From assembly GCA_001414325.1 (NCBI GenBank), contig LLKB01000006.1, positions 124,001-188,000 of the forward strand: DNA of 64,000 bases, written 5' to 3'. Shown in pieces: positions 13,523-36,280 of this stretch. Below the pieces are notes generated by a model, which saw only the letters and a program-made list of their open reading frames with translations, made no database searches and was not told where the DNA came from. Origin of the DNA: Butyribacter intestini. GTDB taxonomy: Bacteria; Bacillota; Clostridia; Lachnospirales; Lachnospiraceae. Within the stretch, counting starts at the first letter, position 1, and every line of letters starts with the position of its first letter. A program made the position numbers and the translations under genes.

Positions 13523-13524
13523 TA

Positions 13525-15360: not shown

Positions 15361-15380
15361 GAGAAGTGGAGGATAATAAA

Positions 15381-17068: not shown

Positions 17069-17980
17069 TTATTTTTCTACAACAGCGAATAAAGTATCAG
17101 CTTGCTTATTTTTTATTAAAGAATCTATATATTCTTTATTTAAATCATCTGTTATCAAAGCTTTATATACAGAACTTAGGCGACCGCTTGGTCTGCCGTC
17201 AGATAACCAGTATAAGTTATTAGAAAGATTGTACCGCTGTATCTGGCTAATCTCGTAATTTGAAAATTTGCAATTATCAAAAATGTATTTAAGCCCTTTT
17301 TCATTATAATTAAAAAGATGTGCTTTTTTATAATAATGTTCTATAAATGGACGGCATCGAAAAGTTTTTAACATTACATCGTCAACATTAGGAACCTCTA
17401 TATAAATCTTTCCGTTTTCATTTAATAATTGTTTTAAATTCTTGAGAAAATCAATTGGTTTTTCAATATGCTCTAATACATGAAACATAAAAATTTTATC
17501 AAATTTGGTTTCAAAGTCTTCAGGATTTTTGGCTACATGAATATTATATTTGGTAAGTCTGTCTTTAATATATGCCCTGGCTTTACTATCCCATTCGGTA
17601 GCATACACATCTTTTACATAAGCAGATATAGCAGCAGTGAAATATCCAACAGAAGAACCTATTTCAAGAATTTTGTCATTGGCTGATAAGTCATTTTTGA
17701 CTCGTTCGGTTCTGAGTTTTGCCTCGCCTAAAAAATTATTAAATACTTTATCGAGTTCGGTGTAGTCGTAATAATCTGCAGTATGCACCTCTTCTCTAAA
17801 AGTGCCGTCGTAATATTCTGATAAATCTTGAGAGGGAAGTGGATACATAAAATGTGTTTCGCAGTTTTTGCATTTATACATTTTACATGAATCATCAGTA
17901 ATATTTCGTATTTTATAATCTTGTAGTTCGACTTCAGTACATCCGCAGAGTTTACATTTAATATTTAAATTGTTAAGCAT
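17069..17980 (-). CDS. SAM-dependent methyltransferase with N-terminal zinc-ribbon
   Basis: This 303-residue class I methyltransferase is the only minus-strand gene of the glycan island. Residues about 7-50 hold a CxxC...CxxC zinc-ribbon (CKLCGC, CKNCETHF). The SAM motif I is KILEIGSSVGYFTAAI, motif II region DVYATEWDS, and FMFHVLEHIEKPIDFL is the family's post-motif. Such proteins methylate sugars in surface or flagellar glycans. The start at 17980 has GGAGG six bases upstream; an ATG four codons earlier overlaps that site. Its isolation behind a bidirectional terminator suggests separate expression. Confidence 0.85.
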   Translation of the reverse strand: MLNNLNIKCKLCGCTEVELQDYKIRNITDDSCKMYKCKNCETHFMYPLPSQDLSEYYDGTFREEVHTADYYDYTELDKVFNNFLGEAKLRTERVKNDLSANDKILEIGSSVGYFTAAISAYVKDVYATEWDSKARAYIKDRLTKYNIHVAKNPEDFETKFDKIFMFHVLEHIEKPIDFLKNLKQLLNENGKIYIEVPNVDDVMLKTFRCRPFIEHYYKKAHLFNYNEKGLKYIFDNCKFSNYEISQIQRYNLSNNLYWLSDGRPSGRLSSVYKALITDDLNKEYIDSLIKNKQADTLFAVVEK

Positions 17981-18248
17981 TTCAACCTCCATGTCGAGTA
18001 TAACACAATAATTTGGTTATATATGTGTATATATACCATTATCTATATCGGCATAAATAAAAAAAGATGTAGGAGAGAGAATAAGAATATTATAAAGTTA
18101 AATAGGAAAAGTGTATCTAGAAAAAAATGGAAAACATTTAGTTTGAATATGGGATTAAACAAAATAAAAAAAATGTCGATATATATATCAAGTAAAGCAG
18201 CAGGGAAGCTGTGAACAGACAAATGAACATTTCATGGAGGAAATAGTA
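17981..18248. other. Divergent intergenic region between methyltransferase and TagF-like gene
   Basis: The region separates divergent genes and must hold their promoters, but I find no convincing -35/-10 pair. A 63-codon plus-strand frame (18023-18214) has no ribosome site and looks like chance in AT-rich DNA. Confidence 0.4.
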
Positions 18249-19499
18249 ATGATTATCAAGATAACTGATAGACTACATTATTGGGGGCAGTTATTACTGT
18301 TGCCGGTCTATTGGTTATCTTTTTTAGTACCACGAGATAAAAAAATTTGGCTTTTTGGCAGCACTTTTGGAAGAAGATTTGCAGATAATCCCAGATATTT
18401 ATATCTTTATGTAAGCCAGCATAGAGATGAATTGGGAATCAGACCTATTTGGATATCACATAACGAAGATGTAGTTAAAATGTTGAATGCTGAAGGTTAT
18501 GAAGCATATATGTATCACAGTTTGAAAGGAATTTGGTTTGCTTTACGCGGAAAGCTTTATTTGTATGATAATTATTCAAAGGATATAAATTTTTGGCAGA
18601 GTGGTGGTGCACTTAAGATAAACCTATGGCATGGGATACCTTTAAAGAAAATTCAGCATGATAATGTTTTTGATAAATTCAGACATCCGAAAAATTTTTG
18701 GGGAAAAATAAAGAATTTCCCAAGAAATATCTCAGATGAAAAACCGAGTCACTATGTACTCACTACATCCGAAAATTTAAGATATATTTTTTCTTCGGCG
18801 TTTAAGACAGAAAATATTTTGATTGCAGGATATCCAAGAAATCAGGTTCTTATATCCGATGATATAAAGAATATATATTTAGATGAAGAGAATAGAGACA
18901 GAAAAAAGATTATCAGTTTTTTGAAAAAAAAAATAAATGGTGGAAATAAAAAAATGATTTTTTATATGCCAACATTTAGAGAAAGTGAAACTCTTTTTTT
19001 TCAAAATTTTGATAGAGATGATTTTCAAAAATTTTTAGAAGAAAATAATCTTTTGTTTTGCATAAAACTTCATCCAAAGTCAAAGCTTAATGAAGAATTT
19101 AGAAATATTCAAAGTGAAAATATTATGGTAATAAATAAGGATGCAGATCCATATGTTTTTTTGAAAATGGCAGATGTGCTTATTACAGATTATTCGTCAA
19201 TATATTTTGATTATCTGTTGCTTGACAGACCAATAATATTCTTCGCCTATGATTTAGAAGAATATTTGAATGATTCGAGAGAAATGTATTTTGATTATGA
19301 TGAGTTTACACCAGGGGAGAAGGTAAACGATTATCATGAATTAAAAAAAAGCATATTAAGATGTGTAAATTTGGACAATGAAAATCGAGACGAATATTCT
19401 GATTTTAGAAAAAAGATCAGAGAGAAAGTTTTTGAGTATGATAATTTGAAAACTTGCTTGGCGAGTATAGAAATGATAAGTTATGCAAAGAAAAATTAA
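18249..19499 (+). CDS. CDP-glycerol glycerophosphotransferase family protein (TagB/TagF-like)
   Basis: This 416-residue protein matches the CDP-glycerol:polyol glycerophosphotransferase family, which moves glycerol- or ribitol-phosphate from a CDP donor to a lipid-linked or glycan acceptor at the inner membrane face. Visible motifs are INLWHGIPLKKIQHD (family core His), KMIFYMPTFRES, FCIKLHPKSKLN, and DVLITDYSSIYFDYLLL with RPIIFFAYDLEEY. A hydrophobic N-terminal stretch (about 10-25) may be a membrane anchor. GGAGG eight bases upstream supports 18249. TagD- and IspD-like enzymes downstream could supply its donor. Confidence 0.88.
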   Translation: MIIKITDRLHYWGQLLLLPVYWLSFLVPRDKKIWLFGSTFGRRFADNPRYLYLYVSQHRDELGIRPIWISHNEDVVKMLNAEGYEAYMYHSLKGIWFALRGKLYLYDNYSKDINFWQSGGALKINLWHGIPLKKIQHDNVFDKFRHPKNFWGKIKNFPRNISDEKPSHYVLTTSENLRYIFSSAFKTENILIAGYPRNQVLISDDIKNIYLDEENRDRKKIISFLKKKINGGNKKMIFYMPTFRESETLFFQNFDRDDFQKFLEENNLLFCIKLHPKSKLNEEFRNIQSENIMVINKDADPYVFLKMADVLITDYSSIYFDYLLLDRPIIFFAYDLEEYLNDSREMYFDYDEFTPGEKVNDYHELKKSILRCVNLDNENRDEYSDFRKKIREKVFEYDNLKTCLASIEMISYAKKN

Positions 19500-19517
19500 T
19501 ACAGGGGAGGTGCAGAG

Positions 19518-20585
19518 GTGTATTATACAGATGAAAATATAAAGAATTTAAAACGAATTTATGATCAAAATAGTAGAAAGCAGTATGTGAGATTGGATTT
19601 AAATGAAAACCCAGGTGGATTAGATGAAAATTTTATAGAACAAACTTTAAAAGAGATTACGCCGAGGCTTATATCTGAATATCCGGAAACATTAGAGTTT
19701 TCACAAAGTCTGGCAGATTATTTGAAAGTGGATTTGGAAAATATTTGTCTTGTAAATGGATCATCAGAGGGAATAAGATATATTATAGAAATTTTTACTT
19801 CTGTTGGTGGAAAGATATTAGGGGTGGTGCCTACATATGCTATGTTTGAAGTGTATTCTAAAATGTATGGTCGTGAATTTGTAACTGTATCTTATACAGA
19901 TGAGTTAGAAATGCCGATTGAAAATATATTGTCTGCAATGACTCCGGATATACAATTATTGATATTGGTTAATCCAAACAATCCTATGGGAAATGCTTAT
20001 TCGGAAAAAAACATTAAGAAAATAATAAAGAAAGCAAAAGAAAATGAAATAACAATATTAATAGATGAGGCATATCACTATTTTTATCCAAATACTTTTT
20101 TGAAATATGCTTTAAATGAAGAAAATATTTTTGTTACGAGAACATTTTCAAAGTTGTTTTCTCTGGCAGGACTTAGACTTGGATATGTCGTTGGAAAGAA
20201 AGATGGAATAAAGCTGGTGCAGAAATTGTGCACACCACATAATGTAAATGCAGTAGCAATGTTATTTGCACAAAGGATTATTGAAAAACCAGAGATTATT
20301 GATGAACTTATCGAAAAGCATAAATTTGGCAGAGCGTATTTGATAAGTGAATTAGAGAAGAACTCTTATCAATATAAAGGTGAAAACGGTAATTTTATTT
20401 TTATCAGACCCAAAACAGATGCAGATGAAATCGTAGATATAATGAGAAAAAAATATGGAATCTTGATAAAAAGTTATGATGGAATAGGCAGATTTGGAAA
20501 ATGCTTGAGAGTAACTACGGCAGAAAAGAAGTATATGGAGAAGTTTGTTACGGCATTGCTAGAGATAGAAAAAAGCATTAACTGA
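19518..20585 (+). CDS. HisC-like class I/II aminotransferase
   Basis: This 355-residue PLP enzyme resembles histidinol-phosphate aminotransferase and the related L-threonine-phosphate decarboxylase. RLDLNENPGG opens the fold, LVNPNNPMGN is the Asn loop, LIDEAYHYF the Asp site, and TRTFSKLFSLAGLRLGY holds the PLP lysine (K212). It starts with GTG, set by GGGGAGG seven bases upstream. No other histidine genes are near, so in this cassette it more likely makes an amino group, or removes a carboxylate, on a small phosphorylated alcohol precursor. The true substrate is unknown. Confidence 0.82.
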   Translation: MYYTDENIKNLKRIYDQNSRKQYVRLDLNENPGGLDENFIEQTLKEITPRLISEYPETLEFSQSLADYLKVDLENICLVNGSSEGIRYIIEIFTSVGGKILGVVPTYAMFEVYSKMYGREFVTVSYTDELEMPIENILSAMTPDIQLLILVNPNNPMGNAYSEKNIKKIIKKAKENEITILIDEAYHYFYPNTFLKYALNEENIFVTRTFSKLFSLAGLRLGYVVGKKDGIKLVQKLCTPHNVNAVAMLFAQRIIEKPEIIDELIEKHKFGRAYLISELEKNSYQYKGENGNFIFIRPKTDADEIVDIMRKKYGILIKSYDGIGRFGKCLRVTTAEKKYMEKFVTALLEIEKSIN

Positions 20586-20606
20586 ATTAAAGGAAAGGCA
20601 TAAAAT

Positions 20607-22409
20607 ATGGGATACTATGATAAAAAGTGCAATGAATTGATTGAGGAATATGGTCTTATTAGAAATGACTTTATAGACAGTGTCCAGATACACAATATTA
20701 TACTTGGATTATTGCAGCAGAAATGTTTGAAAGGAAGAATTGCTTTATGGGGGGCGGGATATAATAACTCCCTTACAAGTCATGCAGCTGTCCTTCTAAC
20801 AAAGTATGCAAGTTGTCTTCAGGGAGTCGTATGTTTGATTGATTCATGTAAGGAGATACAGGGAAAAGAATACTTTGGACATCCTATCATAGCTCCAGAG
20901 GATATTGAAAAATACAATTTAGATTTAGTAATTATTTCATCACGTTCAAGTGGTGAATCCATAAAGAAGAGCTTGGAAAAATTCGGACTCGGAATAGAAA
21001 GTCTGGATATATATCAGGAACTAAGAGATAGAGGAATAGATATACATTATAATTTCTTTGAAGAAAGAAGTTTTTATTCGGAGTTATATGATGTAAGAAT
21101 TGAATATGAACAGGCGGAGGATGATAAAAAAGCAGATGTTTTGCGGAAACTCATTGCTTCGTATATGCATATAAAAGATTTTTATTATGGAATAAAGTAT
21201 ATAGATGAGTATATAGAAAATGGTTATAAGGAAAGCAGTTTATTAGCGGAGTTTAAAGAAAAACTTTTAAATATAATTGCTGATGTAGCAAGGAAAAATT
21301 CGGAAAGAAAAGATGACATTACAATACACTATATTGATGCATTAAGAGCTATTGATGTATTTGATAATGAAAATCCTGGGAGATATAAGGTACTTAAAGA
21401 TTATTTAAAAGATTCTGCAGTTTTTAAAAATATATATTCCACTGCACCTACAACATATGAGAGTATGTATAGTGTAACCACAGGAAAGATGCCGTTTACT
21501 GAGAATGTTTATGAAGATCGTTTTATATTTGCTCCCGAAGAGTTTCCGGTTATGATGGAAGCTATAGACAGAAATTATAAAATAAACCTTTATTCATCAG
21601 GAGAGTGGAGAATTATAAGAGAAGATAGCAGGGTGAATTATGTAGATCAGATACATTTTACAGATAAATTATGGAAGATGGCATGTGATACGGCTGAGAG
21701 TAGTGAAAAAACATTTAATTATCTTTACTATCCATGGGAACTTCACTTTCCATTGTTATGCGGATTTCATAGAAAAAAACCGGTGCCGATGGGATTTAAA
21801 GATGTTGGAATAGTAGATATGTCAGAATTTATAGAGGGACAATTAGCTGATTGTCTTGACTATGTAAATCTTCAACTTGACTATTTTAAAAACATAGTAG
21901 CTGATAATGGCTATACAGTTATATTTAGTGACCATTCTCAGATTGTATATGATGAGGAGAAATGTGTACCGTTTTTTGATTATTATAATTATCCAGATCG
22001 TTCGACTCATTGTGTAATGGCTATAAAAGGGCCAGGCATAGAACATAAAGAATATGATGAAGTTGCATCACTAGTGGACTTTAATAGGATATTTAAAGAT
22101 TTTATATGGGAGAGAAATTATAAATTACCAGAGAGAAAAATTGCACAGTTCCAGTATTATAGTACGCATAACAAGGCTTTCAGAGATGTAGCCGAAGAAA
22201 AAGGACTTACTGATTACATTGATGGAATAGCAGGTTTTATATCAAAAGATTATTTATATGCAGTTACTAATACAGGAGTTAAAGAAGTGTATCGCATGGG
22301 AAATCATCGTGATAATATTATTGATACTCCAGAGGGTATGGCATATGCCGAAGAGATAAATAATAATTATAAAATTGAGTTTCCTAAATTTTTGAAATTA
22401 ACATATTGA
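20607..22409 (+). CDS. Rossmann-like domain plus alkaline-phosphatase-fold (sulfatase-like) protein
   Basis: This 600-residue protein has two parts. Residues about 38-130 form a nucleotide-binding-like domain (RIALWGAGYNN, CLIDSCKEIQG, LVIISSRSSGESI). Residues about 235-540 resemble the alkaline-phosphatase/sulfatase superfamily: HYIDALRAID (metal Asp, D244), a STAPTTYESMYSVTTG stretch that could supply the nucleophile, WELHFPLLCG, and FSDHSQ (D442, H443). There is no signal peptide or membrane segment, unlike lipid-dependent phosphoethanolamine transferases, so it probably works in the cytoplasm. It is a paralogue of the protein at 28473. Transferase or hydrolase activity is open. Confidence 0.7.
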   Translation: MGYYDKKCNELIEEYGLIRNDFIDSVQIHNIILGLLQQKCLKGRIALWGAGYNNSLTSHAAVLLTKYASCLQGVVCLIDSCKEIQGKEYFGHPIIAPEDIEKYNLDLVIISSRSSGESIKKSLEKFGLGIESLDIYQELRDRGIDIHYNFFEERSFYSELYDVRIEYEQAEDDKKADVLRKLIASYMHIKDFYYGIKYIDEYIENGYKESSLLAEFKEKLLNIIADVARKNSERKDDITIHYIDALRAIDVFDNENPGRYKVLKDYLKDSAVFKNIYSTAPTTYESMYSVTTGKMPFTENVYEDRFIFAPEEFPVMMEAIDRNYKINLYSSGEWRIIREDSRVNYVDQIHFTDKLWKMACDTAESSEKTFNYLYYPWELHFPLLCGFHRKKPVPMGFKDVGIVDMSEFIEGQLADCLDYVNLQLDYFKNIVADNGYTVIFSDHSQIVYDEEKCVPFFDYYNYPDRSTHCVMAIKGPGIEHKEYDEVASLVDFNRIFKDFIWERNYKLPERKIAQFQYYSTHNKAFRDVAEEKGLTDYIDGIAGFISKDYLYAVTNTGVKEVYRMGNHRDNIIDTPEGMAYAEEINNNYKIEFPKFLKLTY

Positions 22410-22461
22410 TTTGTATTAAATTAATATGAATTGTAATATCAGTGATTGTGAGGTGATGAAC

Positions 22462-23808
22462 TTGAAAAAAGTAATTACATATGGAACATTTGATTTGTTT
22501 CATTATGGTCATCAAAATTTGTTAAAAAGAGCAAAAGAACTTGGAGATTACCTTATAGTAGGGGTAACATCAGAAGATTTTGATGTCAACAGGGGAAAGT
22601 TGAATGTTCAGCAATCATTGATGGAAAGAATTAAAAATGTAAAAGAATCCGGCTATGCTGATGAAATAATAGTTGAAGAGTATGAGGGGCAGAAGATAGA
22701 TGATATACAGAAATATGATATAGATATATTTGCTATAGGTTCAGACTGGAAAGGTGATTTTGATTATCTTAAAGAATATTGCGATGTTGTTTATATTGAT
22801 AGGACAAAAGGAATTTCAAGTTCAGAAATAAGAGAAAAACAGCAGTCTGTAATTATGGGAATTATAGGAAAAGGCACAATGATAGATAAATTTGTGTCTG
22901 AGTCTAAATTTGTAAGCGGAGTTACCATAGGTGATATATGTGAACCTGTATTATATGAGGATAGTGCAGATATAAAGTTTGCAAAAGAAAAAGATATAGA
23001 AGATATGCTTAAAAAATCTGATGTGGTTTATATATTGACAGGACCGGCAGCAAGAGGGGATTATGTAAAAAAAGCATTAGATAATGCTTGCCATGTTATG
23101 TGCGAATCTCCAATATCGTTGAAAAAAGAACAGACAAAAAAATTGTATGATTATGCAAAGAAAAAAGGGATTGTATTGTTTGAAGCACTTAAAACAGCTT
23201 ATATGAAAGCTTTTAACAGATTGGTTGTTCTTGTGAAAGGTGGGATTATAGGTGATATAAAAGCAATCGATGCTACTTGTACATCAATGCAGCCATCAAA
23301 TAAATGGTTTTATAATAAGGAAAATGCGGGGGGGAGTTTTACGGACTGGGGACCGTTTGTATTATTACCTGTTTTAAAAATTTTTGGTTTAGATTATAAA
23401 AAATGCAGTTTTGTAACAGATATTGATGAAAAAAAGGGAATAGATATTTTTACACAAATAAGTTTATTGTATAAAAACGGTATTGCAAACTTAAAGGTAG
23501 GATATGGAGTCAAATCAGAAGGTGATTTGGTTATTTCTGGTACGAAAGGATATATATATGTACCGTCACCGTGGTGGAAAACCGAGTATTTTGAAGTCCG
23601 TTTTGAAAATTTTAATGATAATAAAAGATACTTTTATAAGATTGATGGTACAGGAGAACGATATGAGATTGCAGAGTTTATGCGAGAGATAAGAACAAAG
23701 GATAGAAATGTATTATTATCATCTGAAGTGTCATGTTTTATAGGATATGTTATGGAAAGATTTGAAAGTAAAGATGAAGACACTGCTATTTTGAAAAAAG
23801 GAGAGTAA
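22462..23808 (+). CDS. TagD-like cytidylyltransferase fused to Gfo/Idh-like oxidoreductase
   Basis: Residues 1 to about 130 are a glycerol-3-phosphate cytidylyltransferase (VITYGTFDLFHYGHQNLLKR split over the HxGH site, H14-H17; ISSSEIR at the end). Residues about 138-448 resemble Gfo/Idh/MocA oxidoreductases. The usual EKP motif reads ESP (VMCESPIS) and the catalytic DxGxH region reads DWGPF, so redox activity may be altered or lost. I chose a TTG start at 22462: GAGGTG lies six bases upstream and the protein then begins MKKVITYGTFDL as in TagD. An ATG at 22426 has no ribosome site. It may make CDP-glycerol or a modified CDP-polyol. Confidence 0.83.
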   Translation: MKKVITYGTFDLFHYGHQNLLKRAKELGDYLIVGVTSEDFDVNRGKLNVQQSLMERIKNVKESGYADEIIVEEYEGQKIDDIQKYDIDIFAIGSDWKGDFDYLKEYCDVVYIDRTKGISSSEIREKQQSVIMGIIGKGTMIDKFVSESKFVSGVTIGDICEPVLYEDSADIKFAKEKDIEDMLKKSDVVYILTGPAARGDYVKKALDNACHVMCESPISLKKEQTKKLYDYAKKKGIVLFEALKTAYMKAFNRLVVLVKGGIIGDIKAIDATCTSMQPSNKWFYNKENAGGSFTDWGPFVLLPVLKIFGLDYKKCSFVTDIDEKKGIDIFTQISLLYKNGIANLKVGYGVKSEGDLVISGTKGYIYVPSPWWKTEYFEVRFENFNDNKRYFYKIDGTGERYEIAEFMREIRTKDRNVLLSSEVSCFIGYVMERFESKDEDTAILKKGE

Positions 23809-23809
23809 C

Positions 23810-24850
23810 ATGAAAACGAAAATTTTACAATATAGCGAGGTTGATTCGGAAGAATGGGACGATTTTGTATATAAAAATAAGGGTGGATATGCATATCATC
23901 TTTATGATGTTATAGCATTGGATCGCTGGGAAAATGATAAAAATAAATCTTTTGCGATTTTTGATGAAGATCGGAAAGAGATAGTTATGATAATGCAATT
24001 ACATTTGGAGTATAAAAAAATCACAGATAATGGGAATAGCGAGTTAAGGGCTAGACTTCATTCAAGGTGGGGGTTCGTATATAAAGACGGATTACATAGA
24101 AAAGAATTTAATAAATTGGTAAAAGGATTTAAAGAATATATAGATGAATTATATAAAAAATATAATGTTTATAATGCTATGGAAATCGCTATTCCACCAT
24201 TGTGTGAATTGATGCAGCCACAAAAAGGAAATTTGATAAATCAGACAATGTTTTTTGGGTACAGACCATCTGTTAGGTATACTGCAGTGGTTGATTTAAA
24301 AAAGAATATAGAAACTATGCTGGCAGATTGTGAGCAGACAACAAGACAGGCAATTCGTAAGATTTCAAATGAAAAGAGATATATAGTGAGAATGGCAGAT
24401 TCTACAAGAGAAGATTTTGATATATATGTAAAGTTACATAAAATGACCTATACAAGGACAAATTGTGAACATGCTATTATAAGAGATGAGTATAATGAAA
24501 ATATATTTTTTAATTTAATGCCAAAGGATTTGTGTAAAGTATATTTTTTGGTTGATGAGCATGAAAATAAAGTTGTTGCAGCAACAGTAATTTTGTTATT
24601 CAAAAATACAGCATATTATTGGTGGGGGGCATCTGAAAATGACAAAGAAGATGGAGTAAATAAATATTTATTATGGAAAGTAATGTTAGAGGTTAAGAAA
24701 TTATATAGCGATGAATATGAATATTTTTGGTTTGAAACAGGTGGGATATATTTATGGGCAAGAAATGGGAAAACTAAAGGATTATCTGATTTCAAAAAAT
24801 GTTTTGGAGTAAAAATTCATCCTATATGGACTGGAACATATTGTTGTTAA
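23810..24850 (+). CDS. FemAB/GNAT-type acyltransferase
   Basis: This 346-residue protein fits the Acetyltransf_6/FemAB-like group, tandem GNAT folds that transfer amino-acyl or acyl groups to amines. The segment QTTRQAIRKISNEKRYIVR followed by FDIYVKLHKMTYTRT is typical, as is the C-terminal strand-helix pair (AAATVILLFKNTAYYWWGAS is close to VVAATVILLF...AYYWWGAS). It starts two bases after the stop of the previous gene. In this setting it probably puts an acyl or aminoacyl group on an amino sugar or amino alcohol of the glycan. A tRNA-dependent role cannot be decided. Confidence 0.75.
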   Translation: MKTKILQYSEVDSEEWDDFVYKNKGGYAYHLYDVIALDRWENDKNKSFAIFDEDRKEIVMIMQLHLEYKKITDNGNSELRARLHSRWGFVYKDGLHRKEFNKLVKGFKEYIDELYKKYNVYNAMEIAIPPLCELMQPQKGNLINQTMFFGYRPSVRYTAVVDLKKNIETMLADCEQTTRQAIRKISNEKRYIVRMADSTREDFDIYVKLHKMTYTRTNCEHAIIRDEYNENIFFNLMPKDLCKVYFLVDEHENKVVAATVILLFKNTAYYWWGASENDKEDGVNKYLLWKVMLEVKKLYSDEYEYFWFETGGIYLWARNGKTKGLSDFKKCFGVKIHPIWTGTYCC

Positions 24851-24863
24851 TTGGAGGAAATAT

Positions 24864-26042
24864 ATGGAATTTAAAACATGTGCTGAGTTTGCATTTAGTA
24901 ATTTGGAAAAAAAAATAAAAGAGTTTAATTTATTTAAGAAAAAAATATATATATATCAGTATAGCTCACCTGCTAAATTGTTTATTACATATTTATTGGA
25001 AAAACAGATAAACATAATTGCTATTGTTGATATAAGAAATGATAAATTGGATAAAAAATTTTTAGGAATTCCTGTAATTGATATTAAAGAATTTGAAACA
25101 AAGATTGATGATGATAGTGTATTGTTATGCGAAAGAGGACAATATGAAAAATGCATTTTAGATATTAAATATTCCAGCAAAAACAGAATTATTAAGAAAA
25201 TAATAAGTATAGATGTATATAATTATAAGGCTAAAGAGGATTGTCTGGAATGGAAAGATAGCTATCACAATATTGAATTAAAAGAAGTACATGATGAAAT
25301 GTTAGATATACTAAAATGGTTTCATGAATTTTGTGAAGATAATAATTTATATTATGTTTTATATAGTGGGAGTTTAATTGGTGCAATAAGACATGGGGGT
25401 ATTATTCCATGGGATGATGATATTGATGTAATTATGCCGGCGGGAGATTATCTTAAATGTTGTAAAATGTTGAGTGGAATAAAAAAATATGAATTTAAAA
25501 GTATATTTAGTGAAAATAATCATCCATTTATAAGTACGATATCAAAGTTGACATCTAAACATTATAGATATGAAGAAAGAAATTTTCCTTTACGTGTAGA
25601 TATGGGAATAGGAATGGATATATGGCCGTTGGGAGGAGTACCAGAAAATGAGGATAAACAGTTAGAATTTTCACAAGAATTAGAAAATATAGGAAATGAA
25701 TGGAAACAGAAAGTAGTTATTCCGTATGGAACAATGGAATATAAAAAAGAATTGTACGAATATATGGTAAATAAGATAAAAGATGCTATTAAAAGGTATG
25801 ATATAAAAAATAGTAGATATGTTTCATGTGTATATTGTGGAACATTTGGATTTAATGGTAATAAATCGAGAGTGATGTTAAAAGAAGATTATTTAGAACG
25901 AAAACTAGCGAAATTTGAGCAATATAATTTTTGGATTCCTAAGGGATATGACAAAATTTTAAGAACGGATTATGGTGATTATATGGAGATACCTTCTATT
26001 GAGAAAAAATTAGATAAAAAGATTAAAGTTTATTATAGATAA
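24864..26042 (+). CDS. LicD-family phospho-alcohol transferase with N-terminal Rossmann-like domain
   Basis: Residues about 140-392 are LicD: VLYSGSLIGAIRHGG and IPWDDDIDVIMP with the metal-binding Asp cluster (D184-D186, D188). LicD proteins transfer phosphocholine or related groups from CDP donors to glycans. Residues 1 to about 130 form a small Rossmann-like domain (KKIYIYQYSSPAKL, IIAIVDIRND, VLLCERGQY) like those at the front of the proteins at 20607 and 28473. GGAGG sits six bases upstream. Two LicC-type domains and a LicA-type kinase downstream supply a matching donor pathway. Confidence 0.87.
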   Translation: MEFKTCAEFAFSNLEKKIKEFNLFKKKIYIYQYSSPAKLFITYLLEKQINIIAIVDIRNDKLDKKFLGIPVIDIKEFETKIDDDSVLLCERGQYEKCILDIKYSSKNRIIKKIISIDVYNYKAKEDCLEWKDSYHNIELKEVHDEMLDILKWFHEFCEDNNLYYVLYSGSLIGAIRHGGIIPWDDDIDVIMPAGDYLKCCKMLSGIKKYEFKSIFSENNHPFISTISKLTSKHYRYEERNFPLRVDMGIGMDIWPLGGVPENEDKQLEFSQELENIGNEWKQKVVIPYGTMEYKKELYEYMVNKIKDAIKRYDIKNSRYVSCVYCGTFGFNGNKSRVMLKEDYLERKLAKFEQYNFWIPKGYDKILRTDYGDYMEIPSIEKKLDKKIKVYYR

Positions 26043-26057
26043 AAGGGGGAATTTTAA

Positions 26058-28469
26058 TTGTTAAGCAAAATAGAATTTGACATAATAAATATGTTATATG
26101 AAAATGATAAATTGACTGAAAAAGAATTGGCAATTAAATTATACAAGGATGTAGAGAAAATTAAAGTTGCAAAAAAAAAATTATCAGATAAAGGCTACTT
26201 AATTGATAGTAGAGTTTCTATAACAGGGGAAAAAATATTAAAAGAACATGAGATAGAAAATGCAATAATATTGGCAGCAGGTATGTCAACAAGATTTGTG
26301 CCTTTAAGTTTTGAAAAACCCAAAGGGTTGTTAAAAGTTAAGGGACAGGTTTTGATTGAAAGACAGATACTTCAACTTAGAGAAAAAGGAATAGATGAAA
26401 TTATAATAGTAGTTGGATATATGAAAGAACAATTTAAATATTTAATCGATAAATTTGGTGTTATATTAATAGAAACAAAGGAATATGAGAAAAAAAATAA
26501 TCATTCAAGTATTTATGCAGCTAGAAAGTATTTGAAAAATTCAATAATTACATCTTCAGATTTATATTTTAAAGAAAATATTTTTCAAAAATATGCTTAT
26601 GATGCATATTATACTGCTGTTTATAAAAGAGGAAAAACCGCGGAGAGAGGTATTATATTAGATGAGGATGATAGAATATTAAATACCATGTATGGTGATA
26701 GATGTTATGATATTTGGGTAACATTAGGTTACGCTTTTTTTAATCAGAGATTTTCGAATAATTTGATTAAAATTTTGGATGCAATATATGATTTACCAGA
26801 AACATATAATAAATTTTGGGCTGATATACAAGATGAAAATTTGAAAGAGTTGTATATGTATGCGAAATTATGTGATGAAAATGTGATATATGAATTTGAT
26901 TCATTAGAGGAATTGAGAAAATTCGACAAGAAATATTTAGTGAATTCTGAATCTAATATAATGCGCCAAGTATGCTATATGTTGGGGGCAAGAGAGGATG
27001 AAATTATAGATATTGAGTCATTAAGAAAAATAAAGAAAACTTTATTTAGATTTAAATTTAGAGATTGTTTCTATATCTGTGATGTGGCTGAAAATGACAA
27101 TTATAAAATTTCTTATGAAGGTTATGTATATTATTTATGTAGAGATATTAAAAAGAAGTTCGTAAGATTATACAAAATAGACAAAAGTATTAAAGTAATG
27201 GGGAAAAATGACTATAATATAAAAAAAGATTTGAAACAAGTATATGAGTATTCAAAGGAATTCATAGATTATCATAAAAGAGCCTTACCTTTATGTGCAG
27301 CAGAAAATGTGATATCGAAATTTGTAAATTTGCCTTTGACATATGGATTTCAAGAACGATATATCATGAATAATACATATTCTTTTAATATGGAAGATAA
27401 TTTTATCGGTTGTGAAAAATTGTTTCCATTTTATCAAAAGATATCAGAAATATGCAGCATAATGTTTGGGGCAAGATATACAGATGCCAGACCGTTTAGT
27501 GGAATGAACTGTATTGATATGATTGTAAAAACAGTATGCAAACCAGGTGATAAAATTATGATATTGGGAAAAGAGCATGGCGGGCATGCATCAGTAAAAC
27601 CAGTTGTAGAAAGATTAGGATTAAAGACTTTTATTGCACCATTTTCTGTTAAGAATTTAGATTTAAAATATGAAGAATTAAATGATATGGTAAAAAGAGA
27701 AAAGATTCAGTATATATTATTAGCACCGTCAGATATAATTAAAGCTTTTGATTTGGAAAAAATAGATACCTCATCATGTGTATTAATGTGGGACTGTAGT
27801 CAATTACTAGGATTGATTGCTGCAAAATTATGCAAAAATCCTTTAGACAATATGGATAATGTAATTATGTTTGCAGGAACACATAAGACTTTTCCCGGAC
27901 CAGCATCAGGACTAATAATGACAAATGAAAAATATTTACATGATAGAATGGAAACACAAATTAATCCTAAATATTTAAGACATTCTCAGATGCATCAAAA
28001 GATCTCTTTATTATTTGCTTTGATAGAATTTGAAATGTATGGTGTTGATTATATGGCACATATGGTACATTGTTCTAATTATTTAGGTGAAAAGCTGCAA
28101 GAGGCTGGTTATGATATTGCAAGAGTAAATGGGCAAATATCATATACACATCAAATTTTTATAAGATGTGATGAAAATTTGATGAATACTATATATGATA
28201 ATGCATATAGATGTGAAGTTACATTAAATAAAAAAGTGAAAGAATTATTTAACGGCTATGGAATCCGTATAGGAACGCAGGAAATAGCCAGGTATAATTG
28301 GGATGATAATGCATTAGATATTGTTGCAAAAATAGTTAAACTATTATCTCAAAAAAATATAGATATAGATAGAGTTTTAAAACTTAAGAATAAATTACCT
28401 GAAAAAAAATTATCATATACATTTTTAGATAAGGAAATAAATGATTTTTGGGAATTAGAAAGGTATTAA
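26058..28469 (+). CDS. Four-part fusion: winged helix, LicC-like cytidylyltransferase, kinase-lobe remnant, SHMT-like PLP domain
   Basis: The 803 residues read as four parts. Residues 1-65 are a MarR-like winged helix (IDFDIINMLYEND-like, KELAIKLYKD). Residues about 68-285 are a LicC nucleotidyltransferase (IILAAGMSTRF, FEKPKGLLKVKG, IIVVGYMKEQF). Residues about 285-385 align with the start of the LicA-like kinase at 30782 but lack its RHPG motif. Residues about 395-803 are a serine-hydroxymethyltransferase-like PLP fold (GGHASVKP, VMFAGTHKTFPGPASGL, lysine K610). It starts with TTG after AAGGGGGA. It may both build and CDP-activate an amino alcohol; the exact reaction is unknown. Confidence 0.8.
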   Translation: MLSKIEFDIINMLYENDKLTEKELAIKLYKDVEKIKVAKKKLSDKGYLIDSRVSITGEKILKEHEIENAIILAAGMSTRFVPLSFEKPKGLLKVKGQVLIERQILQLREKGIDEIIIVVGYMKEQFKYLIDKFGVILIETKEYEKKNNHSSIYAARKYLKNSIITSSDLYFKENIFQKYAYDAYYTAVYKRGKTAERGIILDEDDRILNTMYGDRCYDIWVTLGYAFFNQRFSNNLIKILDAIYDLPETYNKFWADIQDENLKELYMYAKLCDENVIYEFDSLEELRKFDKKYLVNSESNIMRQVCYMLGAREDEIIDIESLRKIKKTLFRFKFRDCFYICDVAENDNYKISYEGYVYYLCRDIKKKFVRLYKIDKSIKVMGKNDYNIKKDLKQVYEYSKEFIDYHKRALPLCAAENVISKFVNLPLTYGFQERYIMNNTYSFNMEDNFIGCEKLFPFYQKISEICSIMFGARYTDARPFSGMNCIDMIVKTVCKPGDKIMILGKEHGGHASVKPVVERLGLKTFIAPFSVKNLDLKYEELNDMVKREKIQYILLAPSDIIKAFDLEKIDTSSCVLMWDCSQLLGLIAAKLCKNPLDNMDNVIMFAGTHKTFPGPASGLIMTNEKYLHDRMETQINPKYLRHSQMHQKISLLFALIEFEMYGVDYMAHMVHCSNYLGEKLQEAGYDIARVNGQISYTHQIFIRCDENLMNTIYDNAYRCEVTLNKKVKELFNGYGIRIGTQEIARYNWDDNALDIVAKIVKLLSQKNIDIDRVLKLKNKLPEKKLSYTFLDKEINDFWELERY

Positions 28470-28472
28470 AAT

Positions 28473-30746
28473 ATGAACATAGAAAATGAATTTAATAAAA
28501 TAGTTAGTGGTTTAAAAGAGTTTCGAAATCATGATTTTTTAGAAAATGAGATTAAAAAAAGTTTTTTAGAAATGATTTATAAATTAGAAGGAAAAAGAGT
28601 GATTATACGAGGTGCTGGCATACATACTGAACATTTTCTGGATAATATAAAAAGAGAAGGGTATTTAAGCAAAATTAATATTTTGGCAATTGTTGATGAT
28701 ATATTGTGTGGAGAAGAAATTGAAGGCATTAAAATAATTAATAAAAATATGCAAGAAAAAATAAAGTATGATTCAGTGGTAATATCATCATTTTCATATA
28801 GAAAAGAAATGAAAAAAGATTACGATGGGAATAAAATAAATTTAGTTGATTTATATGATGAATTAGAAAAGAAAAATATAATATTAACGGCGCCTTATTA
28901 CTTTTATAGGAAAGGGTTCTATGAGACTTCTCTTTATTTGAAAAGCAAATATGAAGCTAATAAGTCAGAAGAAAATTTAGTATTGTTGATAAATAGTCTA
29001 TTAGTATTAAAAGATTTTGTTTCTGCTTTTAAGTATATTGATATATATATAAATAATAAATATAGTAATTATATGGTATATTCAGACGTTAAAAATAACT
29101 TAAAACAATTAATTAATAGTATAAAGCATTATATTAATAATCAAAATTTAAATCATATAATAATGTATTGGATAGATGCAGTTCCATTTGAAAAATTAAA
29201 ATATATACCATATCTACATAATAAAAAAGATGAGTCTCTTTTTTTTGAAAGAGTTTATTCAAGTTGTCCTAATACTCATCCGACAATGCATACTATATTT
29301 CAAGAAACACAAAGAATTGATGATTATTTGTTTTCCAAGAAAAAAATATCAGAAGAAAACAGTAAGCTTTTAAGAGAAATTAGAGATGCAGGATATGAGT
29401 TTAAATATATAGGTCATGTTGCGGATAATCATATTGAAAAAGAATATATATATTTAGAAGATGAATCAGTTTTTGATGATGATAAATTTTCTTTTTCGAT
29501 GTGTGATACATATTGGAAAATGTTACAAAAAATTATAGACACAAAAGTTCCACTCTTTGTAATCGTACATACAATATGTGAGACACATAGACCATTTATA
29601 TCATTTGGAGTAGGAGAAAATTATTCATACAAATTTAAGGAGGCAATTAATTCTAATCAGATTGAATGTAATTATAAATATATTAATGAGGAACTTAAAT
29701 TTTATAATGAAATAATACCAAATAATATTGTAAAAATATATATGTCAGATCATGGTATTAATTTTATGCGCAATGAATGGAATTTTTTGGAAAGAAAGAT
29801 AAGAACTTTTTGCATCATTGATGGTGGAAATATAAAACCTGCGAAAATAGAAGAAATATTGTCTTATAAAAATATGATATATGTAATAAAATTTATATTA
29901 ACAAATGAAAAAGGATATATTCAAAAGGCTGTTGATAAGTATGCATTATTACAGGATGTTGATTTATATAATAAATCAAGAGTAAATAAAACTATTAAAG
30001 AGAATAATCATATTTATGGTATGGCATATAGATGTGTGGTGACTAAATTTGATAAATTTATTAAGATAGCTAATGGAAAAGAAATTTATTATAAATTGGA
30101 AAATGAAAATATAAATTTAATTGATTGTGCTGAGTATAAAGATAGAATTGAGCAATTAAGAAGACTAGCTGGTAATTATTTTTTGAATATTAAAGAAATA
30201 CCGGAATTCGCTAATGCATTAAAATTATACAAAAAAGAAAAAGGCAATGTATATTGGATTACAGGGCTTTCTGGTGCTGGAAAGACAACAATTGGAAAGT
30301 TGTTGTACAATAGAATTAAAGACAAAAAAGACAATGTTATTTTTTTGGATGGAGATGTACTCCGTGAAGTATACCAGACAAAAGATTATAGTAATGAAGG
30401 GCGGTTAAATCTTGCCTTACAGCATGGACGTTTATGCAAGATGCTTTCAGAACAAGGGATAGATGTTGTAATTTGTGTTATTGCAATGTATGATGAGTGT
30501 AGACAGTGGAATCATGATAATATTGAAAATTATCATGAGATTTATTTAAGAGTCTCAATTGATGAATTGATTCGAAGGGATCAGAAACAATTATATTCGA
30601 GAGTGTTAAAAAAAGAAATTAGTAATGTTATGGGAATGGACATACCGTTTGAAGAGCCTAAGAATCCAGAGGTTATAATAGATAATAATGGAAATGAGTC
30701 TCCAGAACAAATTATTAATAAAATTTCAGAAAAGTTTGATATATAA
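28473..30746 (+). CDS. Fusion: Rossmann-like domain, alkaline-phosphatase-fold domain, APS-kinase-like domain
   Basis: Residues about 38-125 are a Rossmann-like domain (RVIIRGAGIHTEHF, ILAIVDDILCG). Residues about 225-480 are a sulfatase/alkaline-phosphatase-like fold: MYWIDAVPFEK (D235), SSCPNTHPTMHTI, VHTICETHRPFIS and YMSDHGINF (D426, H427). Residues about 590-757 match APS kinase: ITGLSGAGKTTIGKLL with the P-loop at 598-605, VIFLDGDVLRE, and a C-terminal VIIDNNG. No ATP sulfurylase genes are near, so sulfate activation is not implied. Cytidine-diphosphoramidate kinase of Campylobacter is a precedent for APS-kinase folds acting on other phosphoryl donors in capsule modification. Confidence 0.78.
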   Translation: MNIENEFNKIVSGLKEFRNHDFLENEIKKSFLEMIYKLEGKRVIIRGAGIHTEHFLDNIKREGYLSKINILAIVDDILCGEEIEGIKIINKNMQEKIKYDSVVISSFSYRKEMKKDYDGNKINLVDLYDELEKKNIILTAPYYFYRKGFYETSLYLKSKYEANKSEENLVLLINSLLVLKDFVSAFKYIDIYINNKYSNYMVYSDVKNNLKQLINSIKHYINNQNLNHIIMYWIDAVPFEKLKYIPYLHNKKDESLFFERVYSSCPNTHPTMHTIFQETQRIDDYLFSKKKISEENSKLLREIRDAGYEFKYIGHVADNHIEKEYIYLEDESVFDDDKFSFSMCDTYWKMLQKIIDTKVPLFVIVHTICETHRPFISFGVGENYSYKFKEAINSNQIECNYKYINEELKFYNEIIPNNIVKIYMSDHGINFMRNEWNFLERKIRTFCIIDGGNIKPAKIEEILSYKNMIYVIKFILTNEKGYIQKAVDKYALLQDVDLYNKSRVNKTIKENNHIYGMAYRCVVTKFDKFIKIANGKEIYYKLENENINLIDCAEYKDRIEQLRRLAGNYFLNIKEIPEFANALKLYKKEKGNVYWITGLSGAGKTTIGKLLYNRIKDKKDNVIFLDGDVLREVYQTKDYSNEGRLNLALQHGRLCKMLSEQGIDVVICVIAMYDECRQWNHDNIENYHEIYLRVSIDELIRRDQKQLYSRVLKKEISNVMGMDIPFEEPKNPEVIIDNNGNESPEQIINKISEKFDI

Positions 30747-30781
30747 GATAAAGAGAGTATAGATTATTTGAGGAAAATAGT

Positions 30782-32383
30782 ATGGAAAAAAATGCGATTA
30801 TTTTGGCAGCTGGAAAATCAAGCAGATTTGCACCATTTACTTATGAAAAGCCAAAAGGCTTGTTTGTCGTAAGGGGAGAAAGATTGATTGAGCGTCAGAT
30901 AAAACAATTGAAAGAAGCTGGTGTAAATGAAATTTATATTGTTGTAGGTTTTATGAAAGAAAGATATTTTTATCTTGAAGATAAGTATGATGTTTGCCTT
31001 ATTTCTAACAACAAATTTGAAAATAAGGGAAACTTATATTCACTTTTTGTAGCCCGGAAGCATATGAAGAATACATATATATGTTGTGCGGATCATTATT
31101 TTGTAGAAAATCCATTTTTAGCAGAAAAGGATTATTCATATAGGGCATGTGTATGGAAAAAAGGATGTTTTAATGAATTTGCAATTAAAAAGAGCGATTG
31201 TGAGGTTATAACTGAAGTATCAATAGGTGGAAAAAACAGCTTTGCAATGGTAGGACATGCTTATTTTACTGAAAAATTTTCTAAAATGTTTTGTGAATTT
31301 CTTGAGAATGAAATAAATGAATTTAGGGTTGCGGATTTGTTTTGGGAAGAGTTTTATGCCAAGCACATTAGTGAACTAACACTGTATGCATGTGAATTCA
31401 GTGATGAAGATATATTGGAATTTGAGTCATTAGATGATTTGAGAAGGTTTGATTCAGAATTTTTAAATAATATTGATTCTTCTATTGTTAATAATATTTG
31501 CAAATACTTAGGTGGCAAGGCAAATGAAATTGATAATATTGAAGTTATTCAGAAAGGGTTGACTAATGTTTCATTCAAGTTTGAGATGAATGATAAAACA
31601 TATGTATATAGACATCCCGGAAATACTTCGGGAAATTTAGTGGATCGTGAAGCGGAGTGCTATGCTCAAAATAAAGCTAAGGAGATTGGAATAGATAAAT
31701 CAATTATTTATATAGATAAATCGGGATGGAAAATATCAAAGTTTATAGATAAAACAATAGATTTTGATTTTAAAAGGGACAAAGCAATTTTACAGAATGC
31801 TATTGATTATATTAGAAAACTACATTCGGTGGAATGTGATGCTAACATAAAAATGTTTGACACATTTGTTGAGGCGGAGAAACTTATGGGGATAGCTTCT
31901 AAGTCTAAAGGTGACTTGTTTGATGAGTTCTCCGATTTATATGAAAAGGTTAAAATAATTAATGGGTATTTGAAAACAGATAATATAGGAAATATGGTTT
32001 TATCTCACAATGATACATATGAACCCAATTATTTATTTACAGAAGACAATAAATTATATTTGATTGACTGGGAATATGCTGGAATAAATGATGAAGCAGC
32101 AGATATTGCATGTATTTGTTGTAGAGATGATTATACGGAAGAAGAAATAAAAAGTGTGGTAGCAATGTATTTACAGAGGAAACCTGATTTTAAAGAATAT
32201 TGTCATTATTTAGCTTATGTGGTATTGACAGGCTGGTACTGGTTTTGTTGGGGACTGTATAAAGGTTCTGTAAATGATGATGATGGATTTTTCTTTCTGC
32301 CAGCATACAGAAGTTGTAAAAAGTATTCGCCAATAGTGCTTAAGTATATTAAAGAATTGAACGAGGAAAAGAGGAAAAAATAA
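30782..32383 (+). CDS. LicC-LicA fusion: CTP:phosphocholine cytidylyltransferase plus choline-type kinase
   Basis: Residues 1 to about 235 are LicC-like (IILAAGKSSRFAPF, YEKPKGLFVVRGERLIER, IVVGFMKERYF). Residues about 255-533 are a choline/ethanolamine kinase of the LicA type: YVYRHPGNTSG, LSHNDTYEPNYLF (H409-D411, Brenner motif) and LIDWEYAG (D429). Together they would phosphorylate an amino alcohol with ATP and couple it to CMP with CTP, giving the donor for LicD. The nucleotidyltransferase half is a paralogue of that in the gene at 26058. GAGGAAAA precedes the start. Confidence 0.88.
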   Translation: MEKNAIILAAGKSSRFAPFTYEKPKGLFVVRGERLIERQIKQLKEAGVNEIYIVVGFMKERYFYLEDKYDVCLISNNKFENKGNLYSLFVARKHMKNTYICCADHYFVENPFLAEKDYSYRACVWKKGCFNEFAIKKSDCEVITEVSIGGKNSFAMVGHAYFTEKFSKMFCEFLENEINEFRVADLFWEEFYAKHISELTLYACEFSDEDILEFESLDDLRRFDSEFLNNIDSSIVNNICKYLGGKANEIDNIEVIQKGLTNVSFKFEMNDKTYVYRHPGNTSGNLVDREAECYAQNKAKEIGIDKSIIYIDKSGWKISKFIDKTIDFDFKRDKAILQNAIDYIRKLHSVECDANIKMFDTFVEAEKLMGIASKSKGDLFDEFSDLYEKVKIINGYLKTDNIGNMVLSHNDTYEPNYLFTEDNKLYLIDWEYAGINDEAADIACICCRDDYTEEEIKSVVAMYLQRKPDFKEYCHYLAYVVLTGWYWFCWGLYKGSVNDDDGFFFLPAYRSCKKYSPIVLKYIKELNEEKRKK

Positions 32384-32384
32384 G

Positions 32385-33089
32385 ATGAATATTGCTATTA
32401 TATTAGCGGGTGGAATAGGTTCAAGGGTAGGAGCAGAGACACCTAAACAATTTATAGAGGTATTAGGAAAACCAATAATTGCATACACAATAGAAAAATT
32501 TCAAAATCATCGAGAAATTGATGCAATAGAGGTAGTATGTTTAGATGCATACAAAGAAAAATGTATAGAATTATGCAGTAAATATACAAAAGTAAAATGG
32601 ATAGTTAGTGGGGGAAAAGATTTTCAACACTCAGTTTTAAATGGAATCAATGAATTAAACGGGAAATTAGAGGAAGATGATAATGTATTGATTCATTATG
32701 CTGCATCACCATTTGTGGAAAATGAAATAATAAGTGATGCAATAAAAGTGTGTGATGAAAAAGGAAATGCAACATCGGCAACACCGTTTTTTTTATTAGC
32801 GGGTTCAAACGATGATGGTATAAAGTCAACAAAATGGATTGATAGGGATAAAGTTATGGGACTGAATGTTCCACATGTATATAAATTTGCCTATATAACA
32901 GGGTTATATAGGAGAGCAGTAGAGCAGAAATTACTTGATAAAGTTGAGCCGCATACGACTTCATTGATGTATGCGCTAGGAGAGACAATTTATTTTTCAA
33001 AAGGAAATCAGACGAATATAAAGATAACAACAAAGGAAGATGTTAAATTATTTGAGGGGTATGTGTTAAGAGAGAGGATGGAGAGATAG
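32385..33089 (+). CDS. IspD/TarI-like polyol-phosphate cytidylyltransferase
   Basis: This 234-residue protein belongs to the IspD family (IILAGGIGSRVGAETPKQF, GKPIIAYTIEKF, IHYAASPFV, then KITTKEDVKLFEGY). IspD proper makes CDP-methylerythritol for isoprenoids, but the TarI branch makes CDP-ribitol for teichoic acids and surface glycans. Its place behind licC-licA, with a TagF-like transferase upstream, favours TarI. No TarJ-type reductase was recognised, unless the Gfo/Idh-like half at 22462 takes that role. It begins two bases after the preceding stop. Confidence 0.83.
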   Translation: MNIAIILAGGIGSRVGAETPKQFIEVLGKPIIAYTIEKFQNHREIDAIEVVCLDAYKEKCIELCSKYTKVKWIVSGGKDFQHSVLNGINELNGKLEEDDNVLIHYAASPFVENEIISDAIKVCDEKGNATSATPFFLLAGSNDDGIKSTKWIDRDKVMGLNVPHVYKFAYITGLYRRAVEQKLLDKVEPHTTSLMYALGETIYFSKGNQTNIKITTKEDVKLFEGYVLRERMER

Positions 33090-35803: not shown

Positions 35804-36280
35804 CTATCTTTCGATTTTACATATTTCAAAAACTTTATCATTCCATGGTAACAGCTTTTCTAATTCACTGTCTGCCATTTCTTCAGTGGGTCGTTTCTCT
35901 AATACATATGTTATATATTTATATACATTTAATCCATTCGCTAATGCTGTTTCGGCTATGCTGTATGATATGGCACTTGCCTCTGCACCTTCAGGACTGT
36001 CACTGAAAAGCCATCCCTTTCTACCTATAACATATGATTTTGCCGTTGCTTCACGTTCTTCCTCTTTCAAGACCTGTATAGGGCTTTCATCTGCCATAGC
36101 AAACTCTATGCTTAACAGCAGTCTGTGGTAAAATTCGTACAATACCCGAAGATACTTATCGGTACATTCTATAACCCAGTTCGCCATTGTTGCACGGCTT
36201 AGTTCAAAACCATACTGCAGCCAGTCTTTTTCCTGGCGGTACAATGGCATCCCATTAACATATTTGACCTGAACAGTCAA
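35804..36280 (-). pseudogene. IS66-family transposase fragment, internally deleted
   Basis: The 158-residue frame joins an internal part of IS66 TnpC (KYVNGMPLYRQEKDW, LSRATMANWVIEC, MADESPIQVL) to its C-terminus (SYVIGRKGWLFSDSPEGAEA, ANGLNVYKYI). The normal protein is about 500 residues, so the N-terminus and a large middle part with catalytic residues are missing. It cannot be an active transposase. Confidence 0.85.

Follow-up and report, generated by a model that had tools for sequence, protein, structure and literature searches.

A candidate horizontally assembled cassette for phosphate-linked glycan substituents beside the flagellin glycosylation genes of Butyribacter intestini

We describe ten open reading frames (ORFs) of the + strand, spanning positions 18234-33089 of a 64,000-nucleotide stretch of Butyribacter intestini DNA (the window; G000:C6:124001-188000, from a genome of 3.61 Mb in 12 contigs), which lie beside flagellin glycosylation genes. 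We tentatively propose (probability about 0.45) that they form a horizontally assembled cassette that makes two to four different phosphate-linked substituents and adds them to a surface glycan, the Maf/NeuB flagellin glycan being the likeliest; by gene neighbourhood alone, flagellin is the putative site of attachment. Domain make-up, motif conservation, linkage and a kinase clade were observed directly. Broadly, the scheme that we infer for substrates, step order, AP-fold transfer and acceptor is as follows. By family, TagD would make cytidine diphosphate (CDP)-glycerol and TagF would transfer glycerol phosphate, and LicC-LicA would phosphorylate a choline-type or related alcohol and activate it with cytidine triphosphate (CTP). 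The pyridoxal phosphate (PLP) domain of an HTH-LicC-SHMT fusion would use aldol or transaldol chemistry, independent of folate, to build a beta-hydroxy-alpha-amino acid, its LicC domain would charge the phosphorylated amino acid to a CDP-amino acid, and LicD would transfer the phospho-amino acid. Furthermore, an APS-kinase-like domain would 3'-phosphorylate a CDP-activated group, and the alkaline phosphatase (AP)-fold domain fused to it would pass on the phosphoryl group by way of a covalent intermediate at a threonine. A bolder proposal, which we consider unlikely, is that two new activities are present. One would be a bifunctional transaldolase-cytidylyltransferase, a single protein that both builds a beta-hydroxy amino acid and activates it as a CDP derivative; the other would be a 3'-phospho-CDP donor system of general use, serving phosphate, phosphonate and phosphoramidate, with an AP-fold threonine transferase.

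Organization of the cassette

The original prediction, made from the DNA letters of the window, had placed a compact run of phospho-alcohol enzymes at this position, and the ten ORFs are indeed separated by nine gaps of only 1-35 bp, three being of 1-3 bp. Families were assigned with Pfam and NCBIfam models scored against their own cut-offs:

18234-19499, +, TagF-like CDP-polyol phosphotransferase, 421 aa (PF04464, 1.8e-61)
19518-20585, +, HisC/CobD-like fold-type I PLP enzyme, 355 aa (TIGR01141, 241 bits, cut-off 276.6; CobD, 157 bits)
20607-22409, +, AP-fold protein 1, 600 aa, with a Rossmann-like N-terminus (PF00884, 19.2 bits, cut-off 25)
22426-23808, +, TagD (glycerol-3-phosphate cytidylyltransferase-like) fused to a Gfo/Idh domain (TIGR01518, 118 bits, 2e-34, below the cut-off of 165; PF01408, 2.4e-11)
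23810-24850, +, GNAT/FemAB-like acyl or aminoacyl transferase, 346 aa (PF13480, 3.8e-09; PF02388, 1.3e-07)
24864-26042, +, LicD phosphotransferase with an N-terminal extension, 392 aa (PF04991, 2.5e-35)
26058-28469, +, HTH, LicC-like cytidylyltransferase, LicA N-lobe stub and SHMT/transaldolase-like PLP domain in one protein, 803 aa (HTH, 18 bits, cut-off 21.9; middle domain NTP_transferase; SHMT, 1.7e-15)
28473-30746, +, AP-fold protein 2 (about 1-585) fused to an APS-kinase-like domain (about 588-755), 757 aa (PF00884, 25.8 bits, barely above the cut-off of 25; PF01583, 6.2e-27)
30782-32383, +, LicC-LicA bifunctional kinase/cytidylyltransferase, 533 aa (choline kinase, 2.7e-14)
32385-33089, +, IspD/TarI-like cytidylyltransferase, 234 aa (PF01128, 4.4e-31; IspD and ribitol-5-phosphate NCBIfam models both under cut-off)

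As the proteins score below most NCBIfam equivalog cut-offs, the family names tell the class of chemistry and not the substrate; at that level, the domain assignments made beforehand hold. The APS-kinase-like domain, listed then as a separate item, is present as the C-terminus of the second AP-fold protein. AP-fold protein 1, under the PF00884 cut-off, is backed by its homology to AP-fold protein 2. The anticipated enzymes for CTP activation and transfer are also found, with four cytidylyltransferase domains on the one side and TagF, LicD and the two AP-fold transfer candidates on the other. The guanine-cytosine (GC) content of 2-kb windows drops to 0.236-0.314 at 18-34 kb, as against 0.306-0.411 in the rest of the window, which suggests that this block is acquired DNA.

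The HTH-LicC-SHMT protein

The fusion would yield a CDP-activated, carboxylate-bearing amino acid for use by LicD. Three full-length loci were found: the window, genome G008 (58%) and contig L013 of a Succinivibrio metagenome-assembled genome (MAG; 62%). No fourth fusion appeared, at the thresholds used, in partly overlapping sets of 61, 392, 56, 398 and 299 genomes; in viral contigs no relative was matched by six peptide patterns, and in phages and plasmids all matches were partial, each covering less than 80% of the query. A LicC-SHMT fusion is not named in the titles of the open-licence PubMed Central (PMC) papers listed as matches. LicD lies within two genes of the fusion in all three loci (adjoining in the window and L013, two genes upstream in G008), and is the putative user of its product.

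The LicC domain matches the LicC structure 1jyk at 2e-36. LicC D105, D192 and E216 align with S166, A255 and E279 of the fusion, and W136, which we take to be part of the choline box, aligns with R197; the aromatic/acidic amine pocket of LicC choline-phosphate cytidylyltransferase (W136, D192) is therefore missing in 3/3 fusions. The LicC residues that fix this numbering come from PMC6697681. Both R197 and A255 occur in every fusion and in none of ten other LicC domains, hand-picked from the fetched loci, where position 255 is Glu or Asp; the metal ligands D168 and E279 are retained in 13/13 domains, and S166 is not distinctive, since two of the ten also have Ser. Because the amine-side acid (D192) is lost and an arginine is gained at the W136 position, the pocket appears to have exchanged a cationic substrate for an anionic one, of which a phospho-amino acid would be the simplest case. 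The term "phospho-alcohol", applied beforehand to the product of the whole cassette, may thus be wrong for this protein, whose pocket points to an anionic amino-acid-like substrate. The stretch between the LicC and PLP domains resembles the start of LicA, with 15.3 (window), 14.3 (G008) and 17.4 bits (L013) against a LicA profile built on relatives, for which the best of 9000 shuffles gave 12.9 bits; these scores are modest evidence that the PLP domain replaced a kinase.

In the PLP domain, SHMT Ser35, Glu57, Tyr64, Tyr65 and His203 are replaced by Ala, Met, Asn, Phe and Gln, while the genome's canonical SHMT retains all five. The Glu57/Tyr64/Tyr65 positions (presumably in E. coli numbering) are Met, Asn and Phe in all three fusions and Glu, Tyr and Tyr in the canonical SHMT of the same genome; a canonical SHMT identity was rejected on the absence of these residues. 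Y435, H510, D579, K610 and R737 align with ObiH Y55, H131, D204, K234 and R366, named in PMC8072733 and PMC10495429 and reported there as conserved in L-threonine transaldolases; SHMTs have them too, so the five cannot separate transaldolase from SHMT. The Glu57 position is Met437 in the window fusion and Cys57 in ObiH (PMC8072733). With NCBIfam, the domain scores 141 bits for SHMT and then 121 bits for fluorothreonine transaldolase, both far under cut-off.

Several observations weigh against a transaldolase-like, amino-acid-activating protein. The PDB ranking for the PLP domain places two SHMT entries, 4bhd and 4uqv (which we take to be archaeal SHMTs), before ObiH (7k34). ObiH His207, a residue that canonical SHMT shares, corresponds to Gln582 of the fusion; the His-Gln motif of ObiH is found in two of the three fusions, with His-Glu in its place in G008. 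The G008 cluster that holds the fusion also contains phosphoenolpyruvate (PEP) mutase and Ppd-like genes, so that a phosphonate substrate is conceivable in that genome. No kinase or phospho-aldehyde source for the substrate of the fusion was identified, and its AlphaFold model, built on a two-row alignment, has a mean predicted local distance difference test (pLDDT) of 40.3.

Two neighbourhoods were also noted, with the adjoining ORFs identified by eye. In the Succinivibrio MAG, McrB-like, KAP-like NTPase and other ORFs (L013:5177-13494) adjoin the pair of HTH-LicC-SHMT and LicD. The PLP domain alone has two relatives (39%, 36%) in other genera, standing alone at L029:4857-9557 (G256) and L030:4191-8171 (G287); beside both lies a large ORF that has a P-loop and, at its N-terminus, membrane helices, followed by a recombinase-like ORF, and the pair in these genomes is possibly a mobile two-gene system, perhaps of defence.

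The APS-kinase-like domain and the AP-fold proteins

The window kinase reaches 203 bits with NF004041 (cut-off 127) and 108.1 bits with TIGR00455 (apsK), under the cut-off of 138.7. In a tree of 21 kinase domains, Cj1415 not among them, the window kinase falls in a seven-row clade (99/97) with those of G063, G020, G025, G008 (two) and G004, its own place within the clade being less sure (87/82); the G541 and G557 rows are long branches beyond this clade, of unsure placement. NF004041 is the best match for 7/7 clade kinases (164-203 bits), and all seven miss the apsK cut-off (108-122 bits; the six relatives, 109-122), whereas the four tested of the 14 rows outside the clade, two of them CysN-CysC proteins, pass it with 240-282 bits. 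A distant APS-kinase-like frame (29%), outside the tree, lies 26 kb before the window in the same genome.

The tree thus places the window kinase with those of glutamine-kinase/GATase clusters and away from true APS kinases. One G008 locus and G004 have sulfotransferase-like, glutamine kinase-like, methyltransferase, GATase and LicC-like neighbours, and the second G008 locus was viewed only to the glutamine kinase-like frame. In G063 the neighbours are two AP-fold genes, a LicC-like gene, a PEP mutase-cytidylyltransferase fusion, an iron alcohol dehydrogenase and a Ppd-like gene, flanked by Maf-type genes; the kinases of G020 and G025 carry a fused methyltransferase and lie downstream of an AP-fold gene. 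The clade is therefore linked to at least two kinds of CTP-activated phosphoryl group. Among open-licence PMC papers, none combined three of four APS-kinase/phosphonate terms.

Two routes were considered for the window genome and rejected. A phosphonate route is contradicted by its sole PF13714 frame (276 aa, matching positions 5-100; 31.5 bits with frame neighbours, just at the family cut-off), which is without the EDKxxxxxNS motif of the G008 and G007 enzymes; PF13714 also matches in an E. coli control. A phosphoramidate route fails because no glutamine kinase was found in the genome (best match of 34 residues, E 7e-4). Since the genome has neither, the group served by the window kinase must be another, plausibly a CDP-compound of the cassette. 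The kinase would 3'-phosphorylate this CDP-activated group, with subsequent transfer via a conserved threonine.

That threonine belongs to a set of residues, Asp235, Tyr262, Thr268, His372, Asp426 and His427, invariant in 14/14 AP-fold proteins (hand-picked, two from the window and twelve from relatives). They include the metal ligands D235, H372, D426 and H427 and the nucleophile T268, in agreement with the motif roles that we assume for the AP superfamily, i.e., metal Asp/His ligands and a Ser/Thr/Cys nucleophile. Threonine nucleophiles occur in EptA/LtaS-type transferases and NPP enzymes. The AP fold is fused to the kinase in the window and adjacent to it in G020, G025 and G063 (four of seven clade members), and relatives of AP-fold protein 1 at 38-46% are found in G008 (two loci), G012, G023 (partial, at a contig end) and G004.

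On the other hand, some data speak against an AP-fold transferase. Three of the seven clade kinases (both of G008 and that of G004) have no adjoining AP-fold gene, so that the AP fold could be a phosphatase, e.g., for spent nucleotide, rather than a transferase. In two of these three loci its place is filled by a sulfotransferase-like gene, a weak call based on a sub-threshold PF19798 match (E 0.035 in G008) and inspection by eye, and in G004 the relative of AP-fold protein 1 is separated from the kinase by six genes. The AlphaFold model of AP-fold protein 2, also from a two-row alignment, has a mean pLDDT of 34.2.

Other loci with APS-kinase-like genes were also noted. L056:7864-14741 (G008), L059:7268-14148 (G004) and L058:3916-11808 (G557) belong to genomes of the window's own family and resemble the methyl-phosphoramidate cluster of Campylobacter jejuni, with APS-kinase-like, glutamine kinase-like, GATase and LicC-like genes and, in G008 and G004, a matched methyltransferase; the available text of a 2019 review describes such modified sugars as so far identified only in Campylobacter (PMC6429109). 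In G063, phosphonate genes stand with an APS-kinase-like and two AP-fold genes within a Maf/NeuB region (L061:1581-17178), a candidate for 2-hydroxyethylphosphonate decoration of flagellin. In G541, ATP-sulfurylase, APS-kinase-like, radical SAM and AP-fold genes adjoin a Maf-type gene (L055:4336-12149), possibly for a sulfated flagellin glycan.

Modular gene content in relatives

Gene content in relatives is a patchwork: a unit of neuB and TagF recurs, and the remainder is swapped. Counting the window's own genome, TagF (E<=1e-60) was found in 14 of 61 genomes and NeuB-cupin (E<=1e-100) in 12 of the 61, in each case all within a single genus. TagF lies within 2.3 kb of neuB, with contig and strand shared, in 8 of the 12 neuB genomes (own included). 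In G013, TagF is at a contig edge; in G001, G002 and G014 the two genes are unlinked, as at least 14 kb of contig extends upstream of TagF and neuB is on another contig. TagF beside neuB is the arrangement that relatives bear out; otherwise the pieces are scattered in them, in part the very outcome named beforehand as speaking against the prediction.

Among 16 fetched TagF loci of relatives, 9 have TagD (six loci) or an IspD-like gene (three loci) no more than two genes away from TagF. The genes after TagF vary by genome, including phosphonate (G008), phosphoramidate-type (G008, G004), AP-fold, LicD and glycosyltransferase genes. The pairings seen are TagF with TagD or IspD, LicC-LicA with IspD (in G026), HTH-LicC-SHMT with LicD, and AP-fold with APS kinase. 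As the content after TagF differs between genomes, the ten genes represent a single version of a changeable tailoring region, not a conserved pathway. A single pathway with a single product, as first envisaged, does not agree with pieces so scattered and recombined; the earlier pathway reading is partly supported, being right in kind and too simple.

LicC-LicA keeps the kinase motifs HNDTYEPN and DWE, and its relative in G026 (57%) is followed by an IspD relative (64%). In G004, a more distant LicC-LicA and one LicC-like gene precede a BCCT-family transporter, so that choline use fits that genome. TagD stands alone in G008, G020, G012 and G004. The IspD/TarI-like protein has a second copy (32%) elsewhere in the genome. 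The HisC/CobD-like enzyme, one of four HisC-like genome matches (the three others at 24-30%), may be an aminotransferase or a phospho-amino-acid decarboxylase.

Flanking genes

The cassette is preceded by the following genes:

8006-8830, flagellin, upstream of the cassette
9330-15360, three MptE-like/Maf-type genes, upstream of the cassette
11192-13522, +, Maf-type protein fused to a CMP-sugar-synthetase-like domain (PF02348)
15357-16874, +, NeuB-cupin fusion, a flanking flagellin-glycan gene that often neighbours TagF (PF03102, 1.4e-45)
17069-17992, methyltransferase-family gene, on the strand opposite to the cassette

Both parts of the 11192-13522 fusion are separate ORFs in G020 (L054). Downstream, an IS66-like transposase fragment (by eye) lies at 35804-36280 (-), the protein at 36552-37544 (+) carries a tandem GMEKGMVEGMEKGM-type repeat close to its C-terminus, and a HAD-like ORF (by eye) is located at 41414-42079, 8 kb from the cassette.

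Alternative explanations

HTH-LicC-SHMT might instead make a CDP-amino alcohol, the PLP domain decarboxylating phosphoserine or, as reported for FrbH, a CDP-amino acid and replacing a lost choline kinase as the source of phosphoethanolamine, an explanation that we find improbable. The SHMT domain does occupy the LicA kinase position, behind a weak LicA N-lobe stub, and a CobD/HisC-like gene is present in the cassette. C. jejuni Cj1436, likened here by description, makes ethanolamine phosphate from serine phosphate (PMC12409886). However, the LicC pocket, deprived of the amine-side acid and provided with an arginine, is the opposite of that expected for an amino alcohol. We know of no SHMT-fold decarboxylases of such a kind.

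A second alternative, which we hold to be quite unlikely, would have the AP-fold/APS-kinase fusion serve ordinary sulfate activation or nucleotide salvage, with no relation to CDP-donors. Such a role would agree with the NCBIfam title of NF004041, "adenylyl-sulfate kinase", and with the G541 AP-fold gene near ATP-sulfurylase and APS-kinase-like genes; it is at odds with the apsK scores on the two sides of the clade boundary, with the glutamine kinase/GATase or PEP mutase genes beside the clade kinases, and with the lack of an ATP-sulfurylase family among the ten cassette proteins, to which that search was confined. Likewise, we see only a slim chance that the genes are unrelated passengers of a recombination-prone glycan locus, some of them inactive and with no joint function. 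Mosaic gene content in relatives, the very low GC and the transposase fragment 2.7 kb downstream would suit passengers, but all ten frames are open, share one direction and lie close together, and catalytic residues are kept in the AP-fold, LicC and PLP domains.

Comparison with known systems

The closest known products are phospho-threonine flagellin glycans. Clostridioides difficile Type A and Pseudomonas aeruginosa b-type flagellin glycan loci (CD0240-CD0244, PA1088-PA1091) both have, as the cassette, LicC-like and TagF-like genes beside flagellin. The CDP-threonine donor proposed there has so far, in the available text, been inferred from mutants and homology (PMC10714395, PMC11833859), and the 803-aa fusion, which may make a CDP-amino acid by itself, would lend itself to direct assay. 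Unlike the C. difficile Type A system (CD0242 likened by description), the cassette has a PLP domain fused to LicC, LicD as the putative user, and three more cytidylyltransferases; the phosphoserine-phosphatase/ThrH-like family is absent from the ten cassette proteins, the only ones scanned for it. Flagellin decorations of gut and rumen bacteria can affect motility, immune recognition and phage attachment.

A cytidylyltransferase fused to a fold-type I PLP enzyme is shared with FrbH, reportedly a LicC-like and PLP fusion with a CobD-like decarboxylase, and with PntC-AEPT (Treponema denticola Tde1415; PDB 6pd1, among the PDB matches of HTH-LicC-SHMT). PntC-AEPT is described as a cytidylyltransferase-PLP fusion (PMC6697681). 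Both act on phosphonates, and the PLP part of PntC-AEPT is a class V aminotransferase, whereas the window fusion has an SHMT/transaldolase-like PLP domain in a genome whose one PF13714 frame lacks the PEP-mutase motif. From the L-threonine transaldolases (ObiH, LipK, FTase), with which it shares the five ObiH residues and the lack of SHMT Glu57, the putative transaldolase differs in Gln at His207 and in its fusion to LicC.

The O-methyl phosphoramidate system of C. jejuni (Cj1415-Cj1418; Cj1415 likened by description) has an APS-kinase-like enzyme in common with the cassette, and relatives of the window kinase stand beside glutamine kinase-like, GATase and LicC-like genes. The C. jejuni pathway has a 3'-phospho-CDP-amidate intermediate (PMC6429109). 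It differs from the window, where the genome is without glutamine kinase and the kinase is fused to an AP fold. By linking phosphoryl decorations of the phosphoramidate, phosphonate and other types, the kinase clade suggests that CDP-donors phosphorylated at the 3' position reach beyond the C. jejuni capsule. Finally, LicC-LicA, LicD, TagD and TagF are common by family to lic/tag operons, from which the cassette differs in its fusions and its combination of genes.

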